A stretch of DNA of 64,000 nt from Funiculus sociatus GB2-C1 (GTDB lineage: Bacteria; Cyanobacteriota; Cyanobacteriia; Cyanobacteriales; FACHB-T130): positions 62,001-126,000 of the forward strand of contig NZ_JAMPKJ010000010.1 in NCBI RefSeq assembly GCF_039962115.1, in the 5' to 3' direction. Under the pieces are notes generated by a model that was not told the DNA's origin, searched no databases, and was given only the letters and a program-made list of their open reading frames with translations. Within the stretch, counting starts at the first letter, position 1. Every line of letters starts with the position of its first letter. Both the position numbers and the translations under genes were made by a program. This document shows, one piece after another, positions 38,659-46,470 of the stretch.

Positions 38659-39330
38659 TTAAGGATTTTTTTTCCTAGCCAAAATTGGCAGGAAGGAGAG
38701 TAAGGCGAGGAAACTCAATGCTAAGAAAAAAGGGAAGCGATCGCCTCCTCGCAAAACCGACTCTCCCGTGGCTCCCACCCAGACGTAAGCTATCATTCCA
38801 GGGATAATTCCTAAAAAGGTACCGACTGCATACGGAACCCAATTAATCGGTGTTAGTCCAAAAAGAAAATTGACGACAGTGAAGGGCGAAATTGGCGCAA
38901 AACGCACCGCTAACACAAAAGTCAGAGGTTGACGGGCGATCGCTTGATTAAACCGCATCAAGGCTGGATGTTCGCCAAATCGACGTTTTGCCCAGTCATG
39001 CAACAGGTAACGGGCAGTCCAGAAAGCAGCGATCGCTCCCAGTGTAGCTCCCACGGTAGACCAAAAGGTTCCCCAAACTAACCCAAAAACGGCACCAGCA
39101 ACAACCGGAAACATAATTCCAGGTATACCTACCGCCGTTGCTGCGGTGAAAATTAGAAGAAACAAAAAGATGCCCCAATTCCCCCAACTTTTTATCTGCT
39201 GAGTGAGAACAATGGGATCGAACAAAACTTTCAGCGGGCTAAAGATACATAGCAGCAGGAAAAATAGCAGCGCGATCGCCATCCAAAATCGTGGATTTTT
39301 GAGCAATTTGACTGGCGACCGATTTATCAT
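38659..39330 (-). CDS. TVP38/TMEM64-family (SNARE-associated, DedA-like) membrane protein
   Basis: The 223-aa polytopic protein has the family core: GIPGIMFPVVAGAVFGLVWG, TVGATLGAIAAFWTARYLL, FRFNQAI-like RFNQAIARQPLTFVLAVRFA, and PYAVGTFLGIIPG. I placed the start at ATG 39330 because the arsS stop TGA lies one base upstream (TGA-A-ATG), a tight coupling. Such VTT-domain proteins move lipids or small molecules across membranes. Its coupling to arsS suggests handling of an arsenolipid or arsenosugar product, which is inference. Confidence 0.88.
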   Translation of the reverse strand: MINRSPVKLLKNPRFWMAIALLFFLLLCIFSPLKVLFDPIVLTQQIKSWGNWGIFLFLLIFTAATAVGIPGIMFPVVAGAVFGLVWGTFWSTVGATLGAIAAFWTARYLLHDWAKRRFGEHPALMRFNQAIARQPLTFVLAVRFAPISPFTVVNFLFGLTPINWVPYAVGTFLGIIPGMIAYVWVGATGESVLRGGDRFPFFLALSFLALLSFLPILARKKNP

Positions 39331-39331
39331 T

Positions 39332-40333
39332 TCACACCAAAGCACCGCCGCAACTAGAACCACTCCCAGCCGTACAACCGTAACAATACTGTGCCGTCTG
39401 TACCTCGTCTATTAAGTCTAACCTTCCAGCTTCCAGTAACTTAGCCACTGTCAGCGTTTCACCTGTGCGAGTTTTTGCTGGAATATTTGTCATCTGGTTA
39501 AAGTCGCAATCATAAATATTGCCCAGATAGTCGATTGAAAGTTCATTTCGACACATTAAATTTTCAACTGTATCGCCATTGAAATGAGCCTCTAGAAACT
39601 GCAAATAGGGAGTATATAGCTGCTTACGTTGTAAATGCTGCTGCACTCGACCTATCGGTAAATTCGTAATCGTAAATAGGTTGTTAAATTCAACCTCAAA
39701 ATGTTCTTTCAAAAAATCTTTGTAATCTTGTTGCAGCTTACTCTGATTAGGAGTTAGAGAAAATTTTTCTGTATGCGGTACTTGCGGGTTAAACACCAAA
39801 TCTAGGATTAAATTTGGGTCTTGGGCATAACCCAACTTATTCAGCCATTGCAGCGCCCGAATTGAAGCGTCATAAACCCCATTTCCGCGCATTTTATCAA
39901 CATTATCTTCCAGATAACAGGGCAGAGAAGCAACTATTCTTGTTTGATGTTTGGCACAGTATTCAGGGATATCTTTAAAACCCGGTTCAAAGTAAATAGT
40001 GAGGTTAGACCTGACAATTACTTGTTTACTATTTTCCCTGGCTGCTTCTACCAATGGCTTGAAACCATAATTCATTTCCGGTGCGCCGCCCGTCAAGTCT
40101 ACTATTTTGAGTTCGGGAAATTTATATATTACTTCAATCAGTTGATTGCAAACTTCTGGGGTAAGTTCTTCTGTGCGTTTTGGCCCTGCTTCCACATGGC
40201 AATGAGTACAGGCAAGATTGCAGCGCTTTCCTAAATTGATTTGCAAAACACTGATTTTGCTTTTACTTAGAGGAAGTCCGATTTTTTCTTTAAATTGGGT
40301 TATTTTTGGTTGATTTGATTGAATCTGGAGCAT
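39332..40333 (-). CDS. arsS: Arsenosugar biosynthesis radical SAM protein ArsS
   Basis: ArsS transfers a 5'-deoxyadenosyl group to dimethylated arsenic on the way to arsenosugars. The 333-aa protein has the radical SAM motif CNLACTHC (C-x3-C-x2-C), the GGAPEMN SAM loop, and a C-terminal cysteine-rich extension (NELSIDYLGNIYDCDF, CYGCTAGSGSSCGG) typical of this subfamily. It is translationally coupled to the TVP38 gene. The upstream terminator after arsH indicates its own promoter near 40340-40400. Confidence 0.92.
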   Translation of the reverse strand: MLQIQSNQPKITQFKEKIGLPLSKSKISVLQINLGKRCNLACTHCHVEAGPKRTEELTPEVCNQLIEVIYKFPELKIVDLTGGAPEMNYGFKPLVEAARENSKQVIVRSNLTIYFEPGFKDIPEYCAKHQTRIVASLPCYLEDNVDKMRGNGVYDASIRALQWLNKLGYAQDPNLILDLVFNPQVPHTEKFSLTPNQSKLQQDYKDFLKEHFEVEFNNLFTITNLPIGRVQQHLQRKQLYTPYLQFLEAHFNGDTVENLMCRNELSIDYLGNIYDCDFNQMTNIPAKTRTGETLTVAKLLEAGRLDLIDEVQTAQYCYGCTAGSGSSCGGALV

Positions 40334-40401
40334 TTCTTAACAAAAATTTATGGTTCTCTCCCGATCATATCGTTCCATCTTGTAGCTGAGTAGTTAAAAA
40401 A

Positions 40402-40424
40402 CCCGTAATCTTTGAGATTACGGG
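40402..40424 (-). terminator. Rho-independent terminator of arsH
   Basis: On the minus strand CCCGTAATCT, CAA loop, AGATTACGGG is followed by TTTTTT. It lies 57 bases after the arsH stop, separating arsH from arsS. Confidence 0.88.
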
Positions 40425-40480
40425 CTTCGAGAAACAGTATTTCACAGCTAGACTTGTTGACCTCTAGCTGTGGTATGAAA

Positions 40481-41107
40481 TTACATCTGAAGCAGCTTGG
40501 CTTCTTTTTCCTTGCGTTCGCTGTAGCGGTCGGTGAGGTGGTCTACTTGATCTCTGAGTAGCAGCGTAAACTTGTAAAGTTCTTCCATTACGTCGATAAC
40601 GCGATCGCGATAAGGTGAATCCTTCATCGTCCCGTCTTCGTTAAACTCGTTGTACGCTTTTGCAACTGAAGACTGATTCGGGATGGTAAACATCCGCATC
40701 CAGCGTCCCAAGATTCGCATGGTATTGACGGCGTTAAACGACTGAGAACCGCCGCTTACCTGCATGACTGCCAAAGTTCTGCCTTGAGTTGGTCTCACTG
40801 CCCCTAAAGTTAGAGGAATCCAGTCAATTTGGTTTTTCAGGATGCCTGTAATATTCCCGTGCATCTCTGGACTAGACCAAACTTGACCCTCAGACCACAA
40901 GCTTAAATTCCGCAATTCTTGAACCTTCGGATGGTCAGCTTCTACGCTGCCGTGAATCGGCAATTCACGCGGGTCAAAAAATTTGGTTTCTGCACCGAAA
41001 CCTTCGATGATTCTGGCGGCTTCTTCTGCTAATAAACGGCTATAAGAGCGCTCTCTTAAAGAGCCATACAAGAATAAAATTCTAGGTGGATGATCGAAAG
41101 TTTTCAT
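40481..41107 (-). CDS. arsH: Organoarsenical oxidase / NADPH:FMN reductase ArsH
   Basis: ArsH is a flavodoxin-fold NADPH-FMN enzyme that oxidises trivalent methylated or aromatic arsenicals to less toxic pentavalent forms. The 208-aa protein has the FMN-binding [19 protein letters not shown], the [20 protein letters not shown] segment and [18 protein letters not shown], all ArsH marks. It is divergent from ynfA across 178 bp and ends at a strong terminator. Confidence 0.94.
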
Positions 41108-41285
41108 GGAAATTAGTAACCTCTAGTTTAGGAATTCAACTAACGAATAGATCATGACTTCTAGATGTAATATCATGTCCGGTTGAATAGCTATAATTAG
41201 AACTTAAGCGGACAGGTTTTTATTATTGATAATTAGACGGACTTGATATAGTATGTCTATTTTGACCTCTTAGTAATTATTAAAA

Positions 41286-41609
41286 ATGCAAGCGTTTGGC
41301 TTCTTTCTACTTGCAGCTCTAGGAGAAATCTCCGGGTGTTACACCTTTTGGGCATGGTTACGACTAGGAAAGAGTATCTTGTGGACTGTTCCAGGTATCT
41401 TCGCTCTGATCATCTATGCTGTTGCTCTAACCAAAGTAGATGCTTCAAATGCTGGAAGAGTATACGCTGCCTACAGTGGTTTCTACATCCTCTTATCTCT
41501 GTTTTGGTTATGGTTGGCTGAGGGGGTTAAACCCGATAAGTGGGACTTACTTGGCGTTACGATCTCCCTCATCGGAGCGGTTGTAATCTTGTTCAGCCCT
41601 CATCGCTAA
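41286..41609 (+). CDS. YnfA (UPF0060) family small membrane protein
   Basis: The 107-aa protein has four predicted helices: [53 protein letters not shown] and [15 protein letters not shown]. It has the GCY and RVYAAYSG motifs of YnfA. These proteins resemble small multidrug-resistance transporters and some have been linked to drug or metal export. It is the only plus-strand gene inside the arsenic island and is divergent from arsH, so control by the same spacer is possible. Confidence 0.92.
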
Positions 41610-41677
41610 TGAACCTCCGTCTGCATCCAAACCTTTACTGCACAATCCTCCACCGTCCCGTATGTCAATTGGCTTAT

Positions 41678-42151
41678 TTATCTTCCTGCCAACTCTCGCA
41701 AAAAGGTGCTTTGGGCTGCTCGCAGTTCGACTTCGGAGTTCGCACTCTCAATTGTCTGCATTGCATCGTTATAAGATACGCCAGTGCAAATCAGGTAAGA
41801 AGCTAGCATCGTTCCCGTCCGTCGTCTGCCACTGGTGCAATGCACTGCAACAGCGTTGCCTTGGCGATTTTGACTGTCAACAAAGTTGTATAATTCTTCA
41901 ACCTGTTCCCGACTGGGTTGAGTACCGCCTTTGGTTGGCAACCAGAGGTGAGGGATGTTTGCCTGGTGATACAAATCTAGGTTGGAGGGGTCATCCATAA
42001 CAGAGACAATCGCGCCAACACCCGCAGCCTGTAGTTCGTTCAGTTCCTCTGGCATTGGCTTACGAACACCTGCGAGTTTGCCTGGAATCACCCACCACAA
42101 ATTCTCTGCAATCGGTTGGATTGGTTGCTCTATCGGTGTTTGGTTTGTCAT
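41678..42151 (-). CDS. Cys-based tyrosine/dual-specificity phosphatase-like protein
   Basis: The protein has the P-loop HCTSGRRRTG, which fits H-C-x5-R-(T/S), a general-acid Asp region (VSVMDDPSNLDLY) and length about 157 aa from ATG 42151. I chose that start because it lies 7 bases after the arsC stop; the longer frame would overlap arsC. A phosphatase of this fold is chemically related to arsenate reductases. Here it is the last gene of the pstS-aquaporin-arsC operon. Whether it acts on phosphoprotein, phosphate esters or arsenate is not known. Confidence 0.8.
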   Translation of the reverse strand: MTNQTPIEQPIQPIAENLWWVIPGKLAGVRKPMPEELNELQAAGVGAIVSVMDDPSNLDLYHQANIPHLWLPTKGGTQPSREQVEELYNFVDSQNRQGNAVAVHCTSGRRRTGTMLASYLICTGVSYNDAMQTIESANSEVELRAAQSTFLRELAGR

Positions 42152-42158
42152 TAGAACC

Positions 42159-42572
42159 TTATCCAACAGGTGTCGCTTCTTCTTTAAGCGATTCAATGAG
42201 TTGAGTCACCCGTTCTTTTATCTGATCGCGCACTCTGGGGAAAATTTCAGGCTGTTCAGCCGGATCGTCAAGCTGCCAATCTTCAAAGACTTCCCGAAGT
42301 ACCCAATCTGTCGGCAGATTAACTCCACAACCGCACAGGGAAATTACCACATCAAAGTCTTCAGCCTTGAAGTCGCTAAGAGGTTTCGAGTCTTGATTGG
42401 TAATGTCAATGCCGATTTCTTTCATGGTAGCGATCGCTTCCGGTCTCACCTGAGAGGCTTCTAATCCAGAGCTAATCACTTCAATTTTTCCCTTACCCAG
42501 CGTTTTTGCAAAGCCTTCCGCCATTTGGGAACGGGCAGAATTTTTCTTGCACACAAACATGACACGTTTCAT
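42159..42572 (-). CDS. arsC: Arsenate reductase ArsC (low-molecular-weight PTP type)
   Basis: ArsC reduces arsenate to arsenite. The 137-aa protein has the CX5R P-loop at the N terminus (F-V-C8-KKNSA-R14-S) and the general-acid EDWQLDDP. The LCGCGVNLP segment supplies shuttle cysteines for thioredoxin- or glutaredoxin-linked recycling. The start ATG 42572 has GAGGAAA upstream and is 13 bases from the aquaporin stop, so they are co-transcribed. Confidence 0.94.
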   Translation of the reverse strand: MKRVMFVCKKNSARSQMAEGFAKTLGKGKIEVISSGLEASQVRPEAIATMKEIGIDITNQDSKPLSDFKAEDFDVVISLCGCGVNLPTDWVLREVFEDWQLDDPAEQPEIFPRVRDQIKERVTQLIESLKEEATPVG

Positions 42573-42585
42573 TTCGTTTCCTCGC

Positions 42586-43299
42586 TTACTGAATATCTCG
42601 AAATCCGTTGGAAAGTTGTCTGTACACTAGCACCGCTAATTGCGCCCCTAAAATCGGTGCCACCCAATAAACCCAATGGTGCTGCCATATTCCGCCCACT
42701 AAAGCAGGGCCAAATGACCTTACAGGATTCATACTCGCTCCGGTAATTGGCCCCATAAACGCCGCCTCTAACCCCACCGTCAAGCCAATTGCTAACCCCG
42801 CAAAGCCAATCGGGGCGCGGCGATCGAGACCAGAACCAAAAATCACAAACATTAAAATAAAGGTGAGAACCGTTTCCAGCACTAGAGATTGCAGCCAATT
42901 CCCTTCTAGTGGCACAGTTGCGCCCAAATTAGCTACGCGCCCCAAAGCTATTAACAGTAAAGCTGAGGCGATAACTGCTCCCAATGACTGCGCCAAAATA
43001 TAAGGCAGCACTCGCCGCTTGGGAAAAAAGCCACTTGTCCAAAAAGCTAGCGTCACTGCCGGGTTAAAATGAGCGCCGCTAATGTGTCCCAGCGTATAAA
43101 TTAAAGCGGCAACAACTGCCCCAAATACAAAGCTGATACCGAGATGAGTAATAGCCCCATTACTAATTTGATTGACCATCACAGCGCCAGTCCCAGCAAA
43201 GACTAAAACAAAAGTGCCAATGCCTTCCGCCATCGTCTCTCGCCAGCAATGGGAAACTAATTTCCACAAAAAAATTTTTGAATTTGATTTCAAAGCCAT
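42586..43299 (-). CDS. Aquaporin, NIP/AqpN-like, probable arsenite channel
   Basis: A 237-aa MIP channel with six helices. The first pore motif is HFNPAV in GHISGAHFNPAVTLAF; the second is NPV rather than NPA in GASMNPVRSFGP. The GHISGAHFNPA and TGASMNPVRS contexts recall plant NIP channels and their bacterial AqpN relatives, many of which pass arsenite. In arsenic operons such a channel can replace an arsenite pump by letting arsenite made by ArsC flow out. The start ATG 43299 was preferred over a TTG two codons earlier. No ArsB or Acr3 is in the window. Confidence 0.88.
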   Translation of the reverse strand: MALKSNSKIFLWKLVSHCWRETMAEGIGTFVLVFAGTGAVMVNQISNGAITHLGISFVFGAVVAALIYTLGHISGAHFNPAVTLAFWTSGFFPKRRVLPYILAQSLGAVIASALLLIALGRVANLGATVPLEGNWLQSLVLETVLTFILMFVIFGSGLDRRAPIGFAGLAIGLTVGLEAAFMGPITGASMNPVRSFGPALVGGIWQHHWVYWVAPILGAQLAVLVYRQLSNGFRDIQ

Positions 43300-43318
43300 T
43301 CTCAATGGGGGATAGGTA

Positions 43319-43349
43319 ATAGGTAATAGGTAATTGACCTATTACCTAT
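43319..43349. terminator. 13-bp stem between pstS and the aquaporin gene
   Basis: ATAGGTAATAGGT, loop AATTG, then its exact complement; a third ATAGGT unit precedes it. It lies inside the operon and could lower read-through from pstS into the aquaporin-arsC part. Confidence 0.55.
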
Positions 43350-43358
43350 GTCTTAAAA

Positions 43359-44411
43359 TTAAAACTTTGCTTCTTGGCGTAACAACTCACCAATTGTCAG
43401 ATTTAGCTTCTGCTCTCCAGCAAATACCGTCCCTACTTTTCCTCTTTCAAAGTGGACAAAGGCGATGTGATAACCTTCTTCAGGTAAAGGTATGTAGCCT
43501 ACAGTGTTAACCAATCGGTTCGCATTTTTCAGGTAGAATTCTACAAAAGCTCGGACTTCCGGTTTGTTTTGAGCATATTTTGCATTTACGTAGATTAAAA
43601 GCGGTCGAGAAAGGGGTTGATACTGAGCATTTTCTACAGCCTGACGTGCAGGAAGCACTGCTCCATTGCCACTGTTAACCGCTAAAGCTTTCAATCTATT
43701 TTGGTTAGCTTCGTAGTAAGCGTATCCAAAGTAACCCAAAGCGTTTGGATCTGTGCCAACTCCTCGCACTAGAAAGTTATCATCTTCACTGGCTGTATAG
43801 TCAGTGCGGCTGGCTCTGGCTTTACCGACTGTTGCTTCTGTAAAGTAGTCAAACGTACCAGATTCGCCACCTGCACCATAAAGTTTAAGCGGTTTGTTAG
43901 GCCAAGAAGACCGAACTTGATTCCAACTGGTAATTTTTCCTTGGGCTGCTGGTTCCCATATCTTTTTCAACTCTGCAATCGTAATGTCTTTTGCCCAATC
44001 ATTTTGGGGATGAACCGCGACGGTGAGGGCATCATAGGCTACAGGTATTTCTATGTAACGCACGCCAGCTTGACGGCAAGCTTCTACCTCATCGGTGAGG
44101 ATGGGGCGCGAGGCGTTGCTGATGTCTGTTTCGCCAGCACAGAACTTTTTAAATCCAGCGCTGGTTCCGGAAAAGGCGACTTGTATTTCGCTGTTGCCAT
44201 TTTTATTTAATTTATATTCTTTGGCTACTGCCTCCGTAATCGGAAAAACCGTGCTAGAACCATCAATTTTAACTGCTCCGTTGCTAGAAGCACTGCTCTG
44301 ATTTTGTTGCGTGGATGGGGCTGAAGTACATGAGTTTAGTGTCGCTGCGATACTAGCTGTCAAAGCAAGAATACCTAGCCGGATAGCCGAACCCTTTGCT
44401 GTTGTGTCCAT
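43359..44411 (-). CDS. pstS: Phosphate ABC transporter substrate-binding protein (PstS/SphX-like)
   Basis: The 350-aa lipoprotein has a lipobox L-N-S-C28 and the PstS fold: DGSSTVFPITEAVAKEY, FSGTSAGFKKFCAGETDIS, NASRPI, and GESGTFDYFTEATVGKARAS. PstS binds phosphate in the periplasm for the PstCAB permease, which is absent here. Its placement behind an ArsR-type operator, in front of the arsenite channel and arsC, suggests it is induced by arsenic to favour phosphate over arsenate uptake. It could alternatively bind arsenate; the binding site is not resolvable here. Confidence 0.92.
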   Translation of the reverse strand: MDTTAKGSAIRLGILALTASIAATLNSCTSAPSTQQNQSSASSNGAVKIDGSSTVFPITEAVAKEYKLNKNGNSEIQVAFSGTSAGFKKFCAGETDISNASRPILTDEVEACRQAGVRYIEIPVAYDALTVAVHPQNDWAKDITIAELKKIWEPAAQGKITSWNQVRSSWPNKPLKLYGAGGESGTFDYFTEATVGKARASRTDYTASEDDNFLVRGVGTDPNALGYFGYAYYEANQNRLKALAVNSGNGAVLPARQAVENAQYQPLSRPLLIYVNAKYAQNKPEVRAFVEFYLKNANRLVNTVGYIPLPEEGYHIAFVHFERGKVGTVFAGEQKLNLTIGELLRQEAKF

Positions 44412-44454
44412 TGCCCTCCCCCGATTACATATTTTAGGGGTATATCTATATCAT

Positions 44455-44470
44455 TTCAAAAAAAATTGAT
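44455..44470. promoter_or_regulatory. Putative ArsR operator upstream of pstS
   Basis: TTCAA-AAAAAA-TTGAT matches the ATCAA-N6-TTGAT dyad I recall for cyanobacterial ArsR, with one mismatch. It is 44 bases upstream of the pstS ATG, where repressor binding would block transcription. Confidence 0.6.
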
Positions 44471-44533
44471 TTGTCAAGTAGTAGGGAAGGCATTAGAGAC
44501 AATATCCTTATTAAAAAAGTTGATGGGTGAAGG

Positions 44534-44857
44534 CTAGTCAGGGCAGGAGCGAGCAGGCAACATCACAGCTTTTGTACGGTACTCGGCGAGGTACTGCTCC
44601 AAGAGGACAAATTGGGGGAGGTTCAGACTGTAGTAAATCCAGCGCCCTTCTTGACGCGATCGCACGAGTTCGGCTTCTTTGAGTGTTTTCAGGTGAAAAG
44701 AGAGTTTAGACTGCGTAACCCCTAATTTCTCGCAAAGTTCGCACACACATAGCTCTTGCGATCGCAGCAAATCTATGACTTGAAGCCGCAGAGGGTCAGA
44801 CAGAGCATGAAAACTAGAAGAAATGGAAGCTGGTGCGATCGCCTTTAAGTTAACCAT
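44534..44857 (-). CDS. arsR: ArsR-family arsenic-responsive repressor
   Basis: The 107-aa winged-helix repressor has the arsenite-sensing motif ELCVCEL (C37, C39, with C42 nearby) at the start of the recognition region, then LGVTQSKLSFHLKTLKEAEL as the DNA helix and GRWIYYSLN as the wing. Arsenite binding to the cysteines releases DNA. I chose ATG 44857 over TTG 44860. A dyad matching the operator next to pstS covers its start codon, indicating autorepression. It lies between arsM and pstS on the same strand. Confidence 0.94.
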   Translation of the reverse strand: MVNLKAIAPASISSSFHALSDPLRLQVIDLLRSQELCVCELCEKLGVTQSKLSFHLKTLKEAELVRSRQEGRWIYYSLNLPQFVLLEQYLAEYRTKAVMLPARSCPD

Positions 44858-44871
44858 CAAGTTTTGTTGAA
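44856..44871. promoter_or_regulatory. Putative ArsR operator overlapping the arsR start
   Basis: ATCAA-GTTTTG-TTGAA matches ATCAA-N6-TTGAT with one mismatch, placed over the first codon and leader of arsR. Confidence 0.55.
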
Positions 44872-45034
44872 ACGACTCTTTAGCTATCCTAAACCTTGCA
44901 CCAACTTTCTAAAACGGAAGCGATCGCCTCCCAAGCTTTGTTACCCAGCTTACGCCGGCTAACGAGAGAAGAAAGCTTCCTCCCCGTTAACCAACCGGCC
45001 TAGGGAGGGATTCGGAATATGTTTGCAGCCTATA

Positions 45035-46003
45035 TCAACAGCAACCGCCGCCAGTATAGTGCCAAGTTGAATCAGTAATTAATACTTCATTTGGCATTAA
45101 TCCTCCCAGTTTTACCGCCGTTTTATCGCACACTGCTGCTGGAATGCCACGCTGAAGTATATGCCCATTCGAGTCATCAAAAAACTCTTCAGAACCAGCA
45201 TAAATTGCTGTTTTTCCTGTAAAAATACAGGCACCATCTTCAGGGATTTGGACTTTAAAAGAGACAGAATCTAAACTTTCCAAAAGCAAAGGTTCCTGCA
45301 AACCGTAGGTAGCAGAATCCAGCAGCCGATATGGACGACGGGCGCGAATTTCCACCTGACCAAACCCAGCATCAATTAGTTGCTGAGTATACTGTTCGTA
45401 AGTCATAGCACCAGACAAACACATTGCCCGTAACCTTTCATCTTTCTGAAGATGGGATGGAATCGGACGAGTAGCAATGGGGTCGCTCATTAGCAGCCTG
45501 CCACCCGGTTTTAATACCCGATAAGCTTCTTGAAGCGCCTTATTCAAGTCAGCGGGTTCAAAGATATTAAAAAGACAATTTTGGGCAACTACATCCACAG
45601 AGGCATCTGGTACTGGTAAGGCGAAAGCGTCGCCTTCCCGAATCTCTACAAAACTGAGGTCAAACCAGGCGTTTTGGGCAGAAGCCATTCTCAAGTTCCT
45701 AGCAGCAGCTTCGCGCATTTTTGCTACTGGATCGACGGCAATTACCCCACCAACTCGTCGAGAAAAATAGGCAAATTGCAGCGCTTCCAAGCCACCGCCA
45801 ACACCCACATATAGCACACTCGGAGAGTTAGCCAGTTCCGCCGCATGGACAGTAGTGCCGCAGCCATAATTCATCTCCTGCATCTGGGGCGGAATTTTCA
45901 GTCCTGGTAATTGTAGCGGACTGCTTTGAACGCAGCATAAACCAACTTCTGGTGTCTGTGCCACTTCGCCGTAAAATTCAGCAGCGGTTTCAAGATAGCT
46001 CAT
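45035..46003 (-). CDS. arsM: Arsenite S-adenosylmethionine methyltransferase ArsM (arsenosugar type)
   Basis: ArsM methylates arsenite using SAM and thiols. The 322-aa protein has the SAM motif YVGVGGGLEALQFAYF, the post-I acid VIAVDPVAK, the core VAQNCLFNIFEPADL, LKPGGRLLMSDPIAT and MCLSGAMTYEQYTQQL. Cysteines at GLCCVQS, NYGCGT, QNC and MCL, and a C-terminal GGGCC, are candidate arsenic ligands. This form is the one found with ArsS in arsenosugar clusters. The gene is transcribed toward arsR with a 177-bp gap. Confidence 0.92.
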   Translation of the reverse strand: MSYLETAAEFYGEVAQTPEVGLCCVQSSPLQLPGLKIPPQMQEMNYGCGTTVHAAELANSPSVLYVGVGGGLEALQFAYFSRRVGGVIAVDPVAKMREAAARNLRMASAQNAWFDLSFVEIREGDAFALPVPDASVDVVAQNCLFNIFEPADLNKALQEAYRVLKPGGRLLMSDPIATRPIPSHLQKDERLRAMCLSGAMTYEQYTQQLIDAGFGQVEIRARRPYRLLDSATYGLQEPLLLESLDSVSFKVQIPEDGACIFTGKTAIYAGSEEFFDDSNGHILQRGIPAAVCDKTAVKLGGLMPNEVLITDSTWHYTGGGCC

Positions 46004-46092: not shown

Positions 46093-46470
46093 GTGAAGTT
46101 AATATGGATCAATAATCATTCGGGACACAAGAGCGGACAGGGGAAATTGGAAAATATTACACCAGAAAATTCTTTAGAACAACAGCAGCGTTGCCTATTT
46201 GTTTGCCAGTACCGCTCATGTCTAGCACATGGCTCCGCCGAAGTGTTAGCCGCTTTTGAGGCTCAGGAAGTACCAGGAGTTACGGTAAAGGGGAGCGGTT
46301 GCCAAGGACAGTGTAGCTGTGGCCCTACGGTGCGGATAGTCCCGGAAGAAACTTGGTACTGCCGAGTTCAACCCCAGGATGTAGCGGCTATTATTGAACA
46401 ACATTTAAAAGGGGGCCAACCGATAGAAGCCAAGCTTAACCCCAGGATTCATATAAAAATAACTTTTTAA
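46093..46470 (+). CDS. Thioredoxin-like [2Fe-2S] ferredoxin-domain protein
   Basis: The protein has the four cysteines of a thioredoxin-like [2Fe-2S] domain: FVCQYRSCLAHGS, then GSGCQGQCSCGPTVRIVPE. It should carry electrons in the cytoplasm. The frame opens with GTG 46093, giving a non-conserved 30-residue leader; the true start may be later (TTG before ENITPENS). It is divergent from arsM by about 90 bp, so it may supply electrons in arsenic metabolism, which is inference. Similar proteins are general in cyanobacteria. Confidence 0.82.
   Translation: MKLIWINNHSGHKSGQGKLENITPENSLEQQQRCLFVCQYRSCLAHGSAEVLAAFEAQEVPGVTVKGSGCQGQCSCGPTVRIVPEETWYCRVQPQDVAAIIEQHLKGGQPIEAKLNPRIHIKITF

Follow-up and report, generated by a model that had tools for sequence, protein, structure and literature searches.

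Conserved dyads in the pstS promoter and at the arsR start as predicted operators of a linked ArsR repressor in Funiculus sociatus GB2-C1

The window analysed here, a stretch of 64,000 nt from Funiculus sociatus GB2-C1 (positions 62,001 to 126,000 of contig NZ_JAMPKJ010000010.1), carries a cluster of arsenic-related genes on the minus strand in the order arsM, arsR, pstS, aquaporin gene, arsC and phosphatase-like gene, beyond which lie arsH and arsS. The arsM gene (45035–46003), which lies upstream of arsR, encodes an arsenosugar-type arsenite methyltransferase, and arsR (44534–44857) encodes a repressor of the ArsR/SmtB type (107 aa). The unit downstream of arsR begins with pstS (43359–44411), coding for a phosphate-binding protein of 350 aa that scores 306.1 bits against the TIGR02136 profile (cut-off, 206.6). 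This is followed by a MIP-family aquaporin gene (42586–43305), by arsC (42159–42572) for an arsenate reductase of the glutathione/glutaredoxin type, and by a dual-specificity-phosphatase-like gene (41678–42196), which overlaps arsC and is the probable end of the operon. No pstCAB genes are found beside pstS, the product of which is an orphan binding protein. A search of the genome for Acr3, as distinct from ArsB-type pumps, gave no match, so the aquaporin is a plausible exit for arsenite. Within positions 38659–46003, arsenosugar-type arsM and arsS are found together with the genes predicted to be under ArsR control, in a genome without an Acr3 match.

The winged helix-turn-helix of ArsR matches NF033788 (100.9 bits; cut-off, 55), and the protein is similar to the SmtB structure 1r1t (E-value, 3.5 × 10−14). 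It contains the sequence C37-V-C39-E-L-C42, a CxCxxC triad, which we take to be the motif of As(III)-sensing ArsR/SmtB repressors. The ArsR search covered 388 genomes of the class, 309 of which match at an E-value of 1 × 10−15 or better, and a first set of 110 arsR loci (our own, 29 chosen automatically and 80 picked) was compiled for comparison. In these orthologues C37 and C39 are present in 110 out of 110 and C42 in 99. Residues 50–57 are identical in at least 109 of the 110, as would be expected if all of the orthologues read the same site. The nearest named arsR among the matches listed is that of Trichocoleus sp. FACHB-40, with 98% identity.

The dyad ATCAA-N6-TTGAT was reportedly described by Lopez-Maury in 2003 for the Synechocystis ArsR. 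The earlier note on this DNA claimed two dyads that each differ from it by one base, and both were indeed found, with every letter confirmed: TTCAA-AAAAAA-TTGAT at 44455–44470, which reads ATCAATTTTTTTTGAA on the minus strand, and ATCAA-GTTTTG-TTGAA at 44856–44871, which reads TTCAACAAAACTTGAT on the minus strand. Both are thus present as one-base variants of the dyad reported for the Synechocystis ArsR, and both are conserved among relatives. Read on the other strand, the site with the left half TTCAA becomes ATCAA-N6-TTGAA, so the two are one predicted operator in opposite orientations and not two damaged dyads; the apparent one-base mismatch is simply the usual form of the site.

The promoter scan revealed a TTGACA-16-AATGAT arrangement at 44477–44450 on the minus strand, in which the first dyad fills the 16-nt spacer between the predicted −35 (TTGACA, 44472–44477) and the predicted −10 (AATGAT, 44450–44455) elements of pstS, the first base of the −10 being the last base of the putative operator. 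Two weaker promoter-like sites were also reported by the scan, and shuffled sequences gave an average of 3.8. The first dyad does precede pstS, as the earlier note had it, but "just before" proved too loose, since the site lies within the predicted core promoter of the gene. This layout is shared by 72 loci from 23 families, selected for a dyad preceded by at least four of the six TTGACA bases; their alignment runs through TTGACA, a single base, ATCAA, a T-rich six, TTGA[A/T] and AT[G/A]AT. The right half is TTGAA in 46 of these 72 loci, and the sharing of this half-site with the −10 element is suggested as the reason.

The second dyad, placed by the earlier note over the arsR start, covers the first two bases of the ATG (44855–44857), as TTCAACAAAACTTGAT is followed by G on the minus strand. 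No arsR promoter was reported by the promoter scan. The sequence TAGGAT (44886–44891, minus strand; four of six bases) is a weak candidate for the arsR −10; this block is kept in three close relatives, and the −10 positions of arsR are scattered among relatives. Judged from the hexamers, transcription would begin near 44443 for pstS and at roughly 44880 to 44872 for arsR.

Conservation of the dyad between arsR and pstS was examined in the first set. A blind scan for 5-mer dyads with spacers of 0–14 in the 300 nt 3′ of arsR yielded ATCAA with a spacer of 6 as the commonest (exact in 30/110 loci), followed by TTGAT with a spacer of 2 (13/110). With up to one mismatch, the ATCAA dyad is present after arsR in 84 of the 110 loci and in the arsR coding sequence of none. 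In 40 loci from 13 families, our own included, arsR lies directly 5′ of pstS, and the gap between the two genes carries the dyad (up to one mismatch) in 38, again including our own; the two gaps in which it was not found are those of loci L033 and L108. When the same gaps were shuffled in 200 rounds, the dyad occurred in a mean of 1.1 and a maximum of 4. Among spacers of 2–12, a spacer of 6 accounts for the 38 gaps and the next best, 11, for 19, while other orders of the same dyad letters reach at most 6. The second set, drawn from named genomes and comprising the best 80 of 403 arsR loci, gave a similar picture: the site follows arsR in 68/80 and lies within its coding sequence in 0/80, and 30 of the 32 arsR–pstS gaps have the dyad (two do not). 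For those named loci whose arsR was new to the first set, the corresponding values are 56/62 and 25/27. Sites on both sides of arsR are found in only 40/110 loci of the first set, and 17/110 have a site on neither side.

Two further arrangements were seen after arsR. In loci L040, L041, L046, L048 and L077, the promoter there carries, in place of a single site, two dyads in tandem at a distance of 18 nt. In loci L044, L062, L079, L087, L091 and L092, inspection by eye placed the dyad shortly 5′ of the ATG of a GAPDH-like frame, and ArsR control of an arseno-phosphoglycerate route is possible in these six.

At the arsR start, a site with up to one mismatch is present in the surrounding 240 nt of 55 out of 110 loci (arsR coding sequence, 0/110). 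The blind scan before arsR is weak, with exact 5-mer dyads in few loci (TCAAT with a spacer of 4, 6/110; ATCAA with a spacer of 6, 5/110). The leading 4-mer dyad there is TCAA with a spacer of 6 (39/110), and in the coding sequence of arsR, taken as a control, unrelated dyads reach 42 (4-mers) and 22 (5-mers) of the 110 loci, which implies that relatedness inflates raw dyad counts. The support for the arsR-start site comes instead from its place. A dyad ending in TTGATG is found at the start of arsR in 36/110 loci of 14 families, 23 of which share one offset, and the ATG of this dyad is in frame with arsR in 35 of the 36, our own included; a further in-frame ATG lies upstream in seven of these 35. 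In most of these 35, the left half reads TTCAA (T in 29/35). In the named set (best 80 of 403), 46/80 loci have the TTGATG-type dyad at the arsR start.

As a plain letter match, the bare dyad is not above chance; what exceeds chance is its position and conservation. With up to two mismatches, the window contains 43 dyad sites compared with 41.8 ± 7.8 in shuffles, and with up to one mismatch the 6.47 Mb genome contains 405 compared with 260 in a reversed control. Assessment of the sites by bare-dyad counts, in window or genome, was rejected, as it would have labelled both of them chance. The only perfect dyad of the window (37713) was also rejected as an operator, since it lies inside a 372-aa reading frame. 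The refined form found in relatives, ATCAANWWWWNTTGAW, which was composed after the relatives and the window had been seen, occurs at eight places in the genome (reversed control, two on each strand); these include both window dyads, and the other six are within mechanical reading frames of at least 179 aa. A sequence-only promoter model, built from 51 promoters of relatives with the window's own site excluded and used to score 150 of 4559 first-look candidates, gave the pstS site 44 bits (E-value, 8.7 × 10−11) and the next listed place 13.1 bits (E-value, 0.48). The arsR-start dyad is absent from the list of places found by this model because the model describes a promoter of the pstS type. 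Thus, the many equal genomic matches that the earlier note named as a refutation do exist for the bare dyad and do not for ATCAANWWWWNTTGAW or for the promoter model, which has one strong match. The lesson is that plain dyad counts mislead where conservation and position decide.

After the arsR stop, a degenerate third dyad was noted at 44510–44524 (minus strand, ATCAACTTTTTTAAT, 5-nt spacer). The region 44513–44534 scored 9.8 bits in the promoter-model scan (E-value, 5.3), which is not significant alone. Its letters are identical in Trichocoleus sp. FACHB-40 (L170), and in some relatives an intact site begins 3 nt past the arsR stop.

Taken together, the two dyads are very probably the operators of an As(III)-sensing ArsR, the gene of which lies between them, and which would repress both the pstS unit and arsR until released by arsenite. 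Without arsenite, an ArsR dimer in the spacer between −35 and −10 of pstS would block RNA polymerase from pstS, the aquaporin gene, arsC and the phosphatase gene, presumably by promoter occlusion, whereas a dimer over the start codon and early transcribed region of arsR would limit synthesis of the repressor itself by occlusion or as a road-block. Arsenite bound to C37, C39 and C42 would free ArsR, and both units would then be expressed, the downstream one probably as a single transcript through the phosphatase gene. The purpose may be that PstS favours phosphate over arsenate, ArsC reduces arsenate and the aquaporin lets arsenite out. Auto-control of arsR and arsenite induction of pstS–aquaporin–arsC, as proposed by the earlier note, are strongly predicted from the conservation and position of the sites, the promoter geometry, the cysteine triad and the rarity of the refined site elsewhere in the genome, ArsR binding itself being inferred.

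Could both sites be functionless palindromes of AT-rich intergenic DNA? The window count at the shuffled level and the 405 genomic one-mismatch sites speak for this, but the site is present in 38 of 40 gaps, whereas shuffling these gaps never yields it in more than 4, its place in the promoter and at the ATG is fixed, and the promoter model has a single strong match, all of which makes this reading barely credible. Genes for pstS are typically under phosphate control, and three further ArsR-family matches are present in the genome, so that the pstS dyad might belong to a regulator of the Pho type or to another ArsR/SmtB-family protein. This we consider very improbable, though slightly less so than chance, because the site tracks an adjacent arsR: in 33 pstS stretches, it is found within 450 nt upstream in 14/16 with an upstream arsR and in 5/17 without a close one. 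The 450 nt before the four other pstS-like genes of the genome contain no site, nor do the 3.2-kb stretches around the three other ArsR-family genes, and the arsR start has a site as well. The two arsR-linked stretches that lack a site within 450 nt upstream of pstS are L155 (arsR 1296 nt off) and L161 (arsR 242 nt off), and the five with a site and no close arsR are L144, L145, L146, L156 and L163. Three of these five have it within 200 nt: L145 and L156, which precede a GAPDH gene, and L146, which precedes a permease gene. The GAPDH neighbour suggests an ars-type context at L145 and L156, as a GAPDH gene is described as linked to cyanobacterial ars clusters in a review (PMC4284471).

Control by the linked ArsR may also be real at the pstS promoter and yet serve mainly the genes downstream, with pstS as a losable passenger and aquaporin–arsC as the output that matters; we regard this as unlikely, although far from negligible. 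The same promoter precedes an aquaporin gene or other genes in other loci, and FACHB-40, the nearest named relative listed, keeps the operator intact with only a 156-nt pstS-like stretch left before the aquaporin gene (L170, 1947–2865), which indicates that pstS can be lost while the control is kept. Against this stand the 40/110 loci with pstS adjacent to arsR and the tree of 54 PstS sequences, 32 of them ars-linked. A well-supported split (100/99) places 30 of the 32 ars-linked PstS, together with 13 not so labelled, on one side; the opposite side holds the paralogue of this genome on contig C82, whose gene adjoins a permease gene, and ten further sequences. A strict clade of ars-linked PstS was rejected, since L084 and L151 fall on the opposite side and the 13 unlabelled sequences lie among the 30. 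The ars-linked label requires 13 changes on the tree, compared with a mean of 17.4 in shuffles, 13/500 of which were as low; ars-linked PstS thus seem to lean to one side without forming a strict clade.

Some neighbouring genes were considered and rejected as members of the ArsR regulon, namely arsM, arsH and ynfA, as no site with up to one mismatch precedes them. The arsH–ynfA gap has two-mismatch dyads at 41151, 41172 and 41232, which were left uncounted and partly coincide with another inverted repeat. This repeat, ATATCATGTCCG ... CGGACTTGATAT (41108–41285; one arm mismatch), flanks a third CGGAC copy, and a different regulator may use it as an operator of arsH and ynfA. The sequence CGGACWTGATAT occurs at six places in the genome, two of them in this gap; of the four other places, two (L168, L169) were inspected, and neither is arranged in this way. 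Two exact copies of the 10-mer CCTGTCCGCT are present in the window, one at 41207–41216 in the arsH–ynfA gap and the other at 46132–46141, close to the gap that separates arsM from a ferredoxin-like gene, and with one mismatch it has four window matches against 3.0 expected. The arsenic genes may share this 10-mer as a second control element.

Among known systems, Synechocystis sp. PCC 6803 likewise has a cyanobacterial ArsR of arsenic resistance (sll1957; arsBHC). Its arsR is unlinked, with an apparent regulon of five genes (arsBHC, rpaB and sll0914; PMC4010505), whereas here arsR is linked, the target is pstS–aquaporin–arsC and the genome has no Acr3 match. The Synechocystis arsM is described as outside ArsR control (PMC4010505, PMC4284471), with which the arsM of the window, having no upstream site, agrees. 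The 2014 review (PMC4284471) states that cyanobacterial arsR is sometimes upstream of pstS, "strongly suggesting" co-regulation by arsenic; the layout is the same as here, and an operator analysis is absent from the portion of the review available. In Agrobacterium tumefaciens 5A, ArsR1 represses pstS1, which lies close to an ars locus, and gel-shift evidence is cited for this (PMC7965956), but that pstS1/phoB1 system involves a full pst/pho/phn operon and other motifs, all but one of which lie away from the predicted −10/−35 regions (PMC7965956). Arsenic islands combine ars, pst and pho genes, with an extra PstS beside a distant second pst operon (PMC3834237); in the text accessible, these are linked to arsenite oxidase genes and the word cyanobacteria does not appear. 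Our literature search, from which subscription papers were mostly absent and which is therefore weak evidence of absence, returned no publication that deals with ArsR operators at the pstS genes of cyanobacteria, and the dyad string combined with ArsR gave no match. The idea of arsR–pstS co-regulation and an ArsR-repressed pstS are already known; the operator-level evidence and the leaning of ars-linked PstS in the tree are new.

With operators of the linked ArsR as the preferred reading, a broader, tentative proposal is a specialised cyanobacterial PstS lineage that answers to arsenite instead of phosphate starvation. Its orphan PstS, released by ArsR, might take the place of the housekeeping PstS on PstCAB and keep arsenate from entering, with one operator in the arsR start codon (a short-leadered mRNA) and the other in the −35/−10 spacer of the target. 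The operator evidence makes the 2014 suggestion of arsR–pstS co-regulation base-precise, testable and common to many families, and a group of PstS proteins is named in which it may be tested whether arsenite retunes phosphate uptake.
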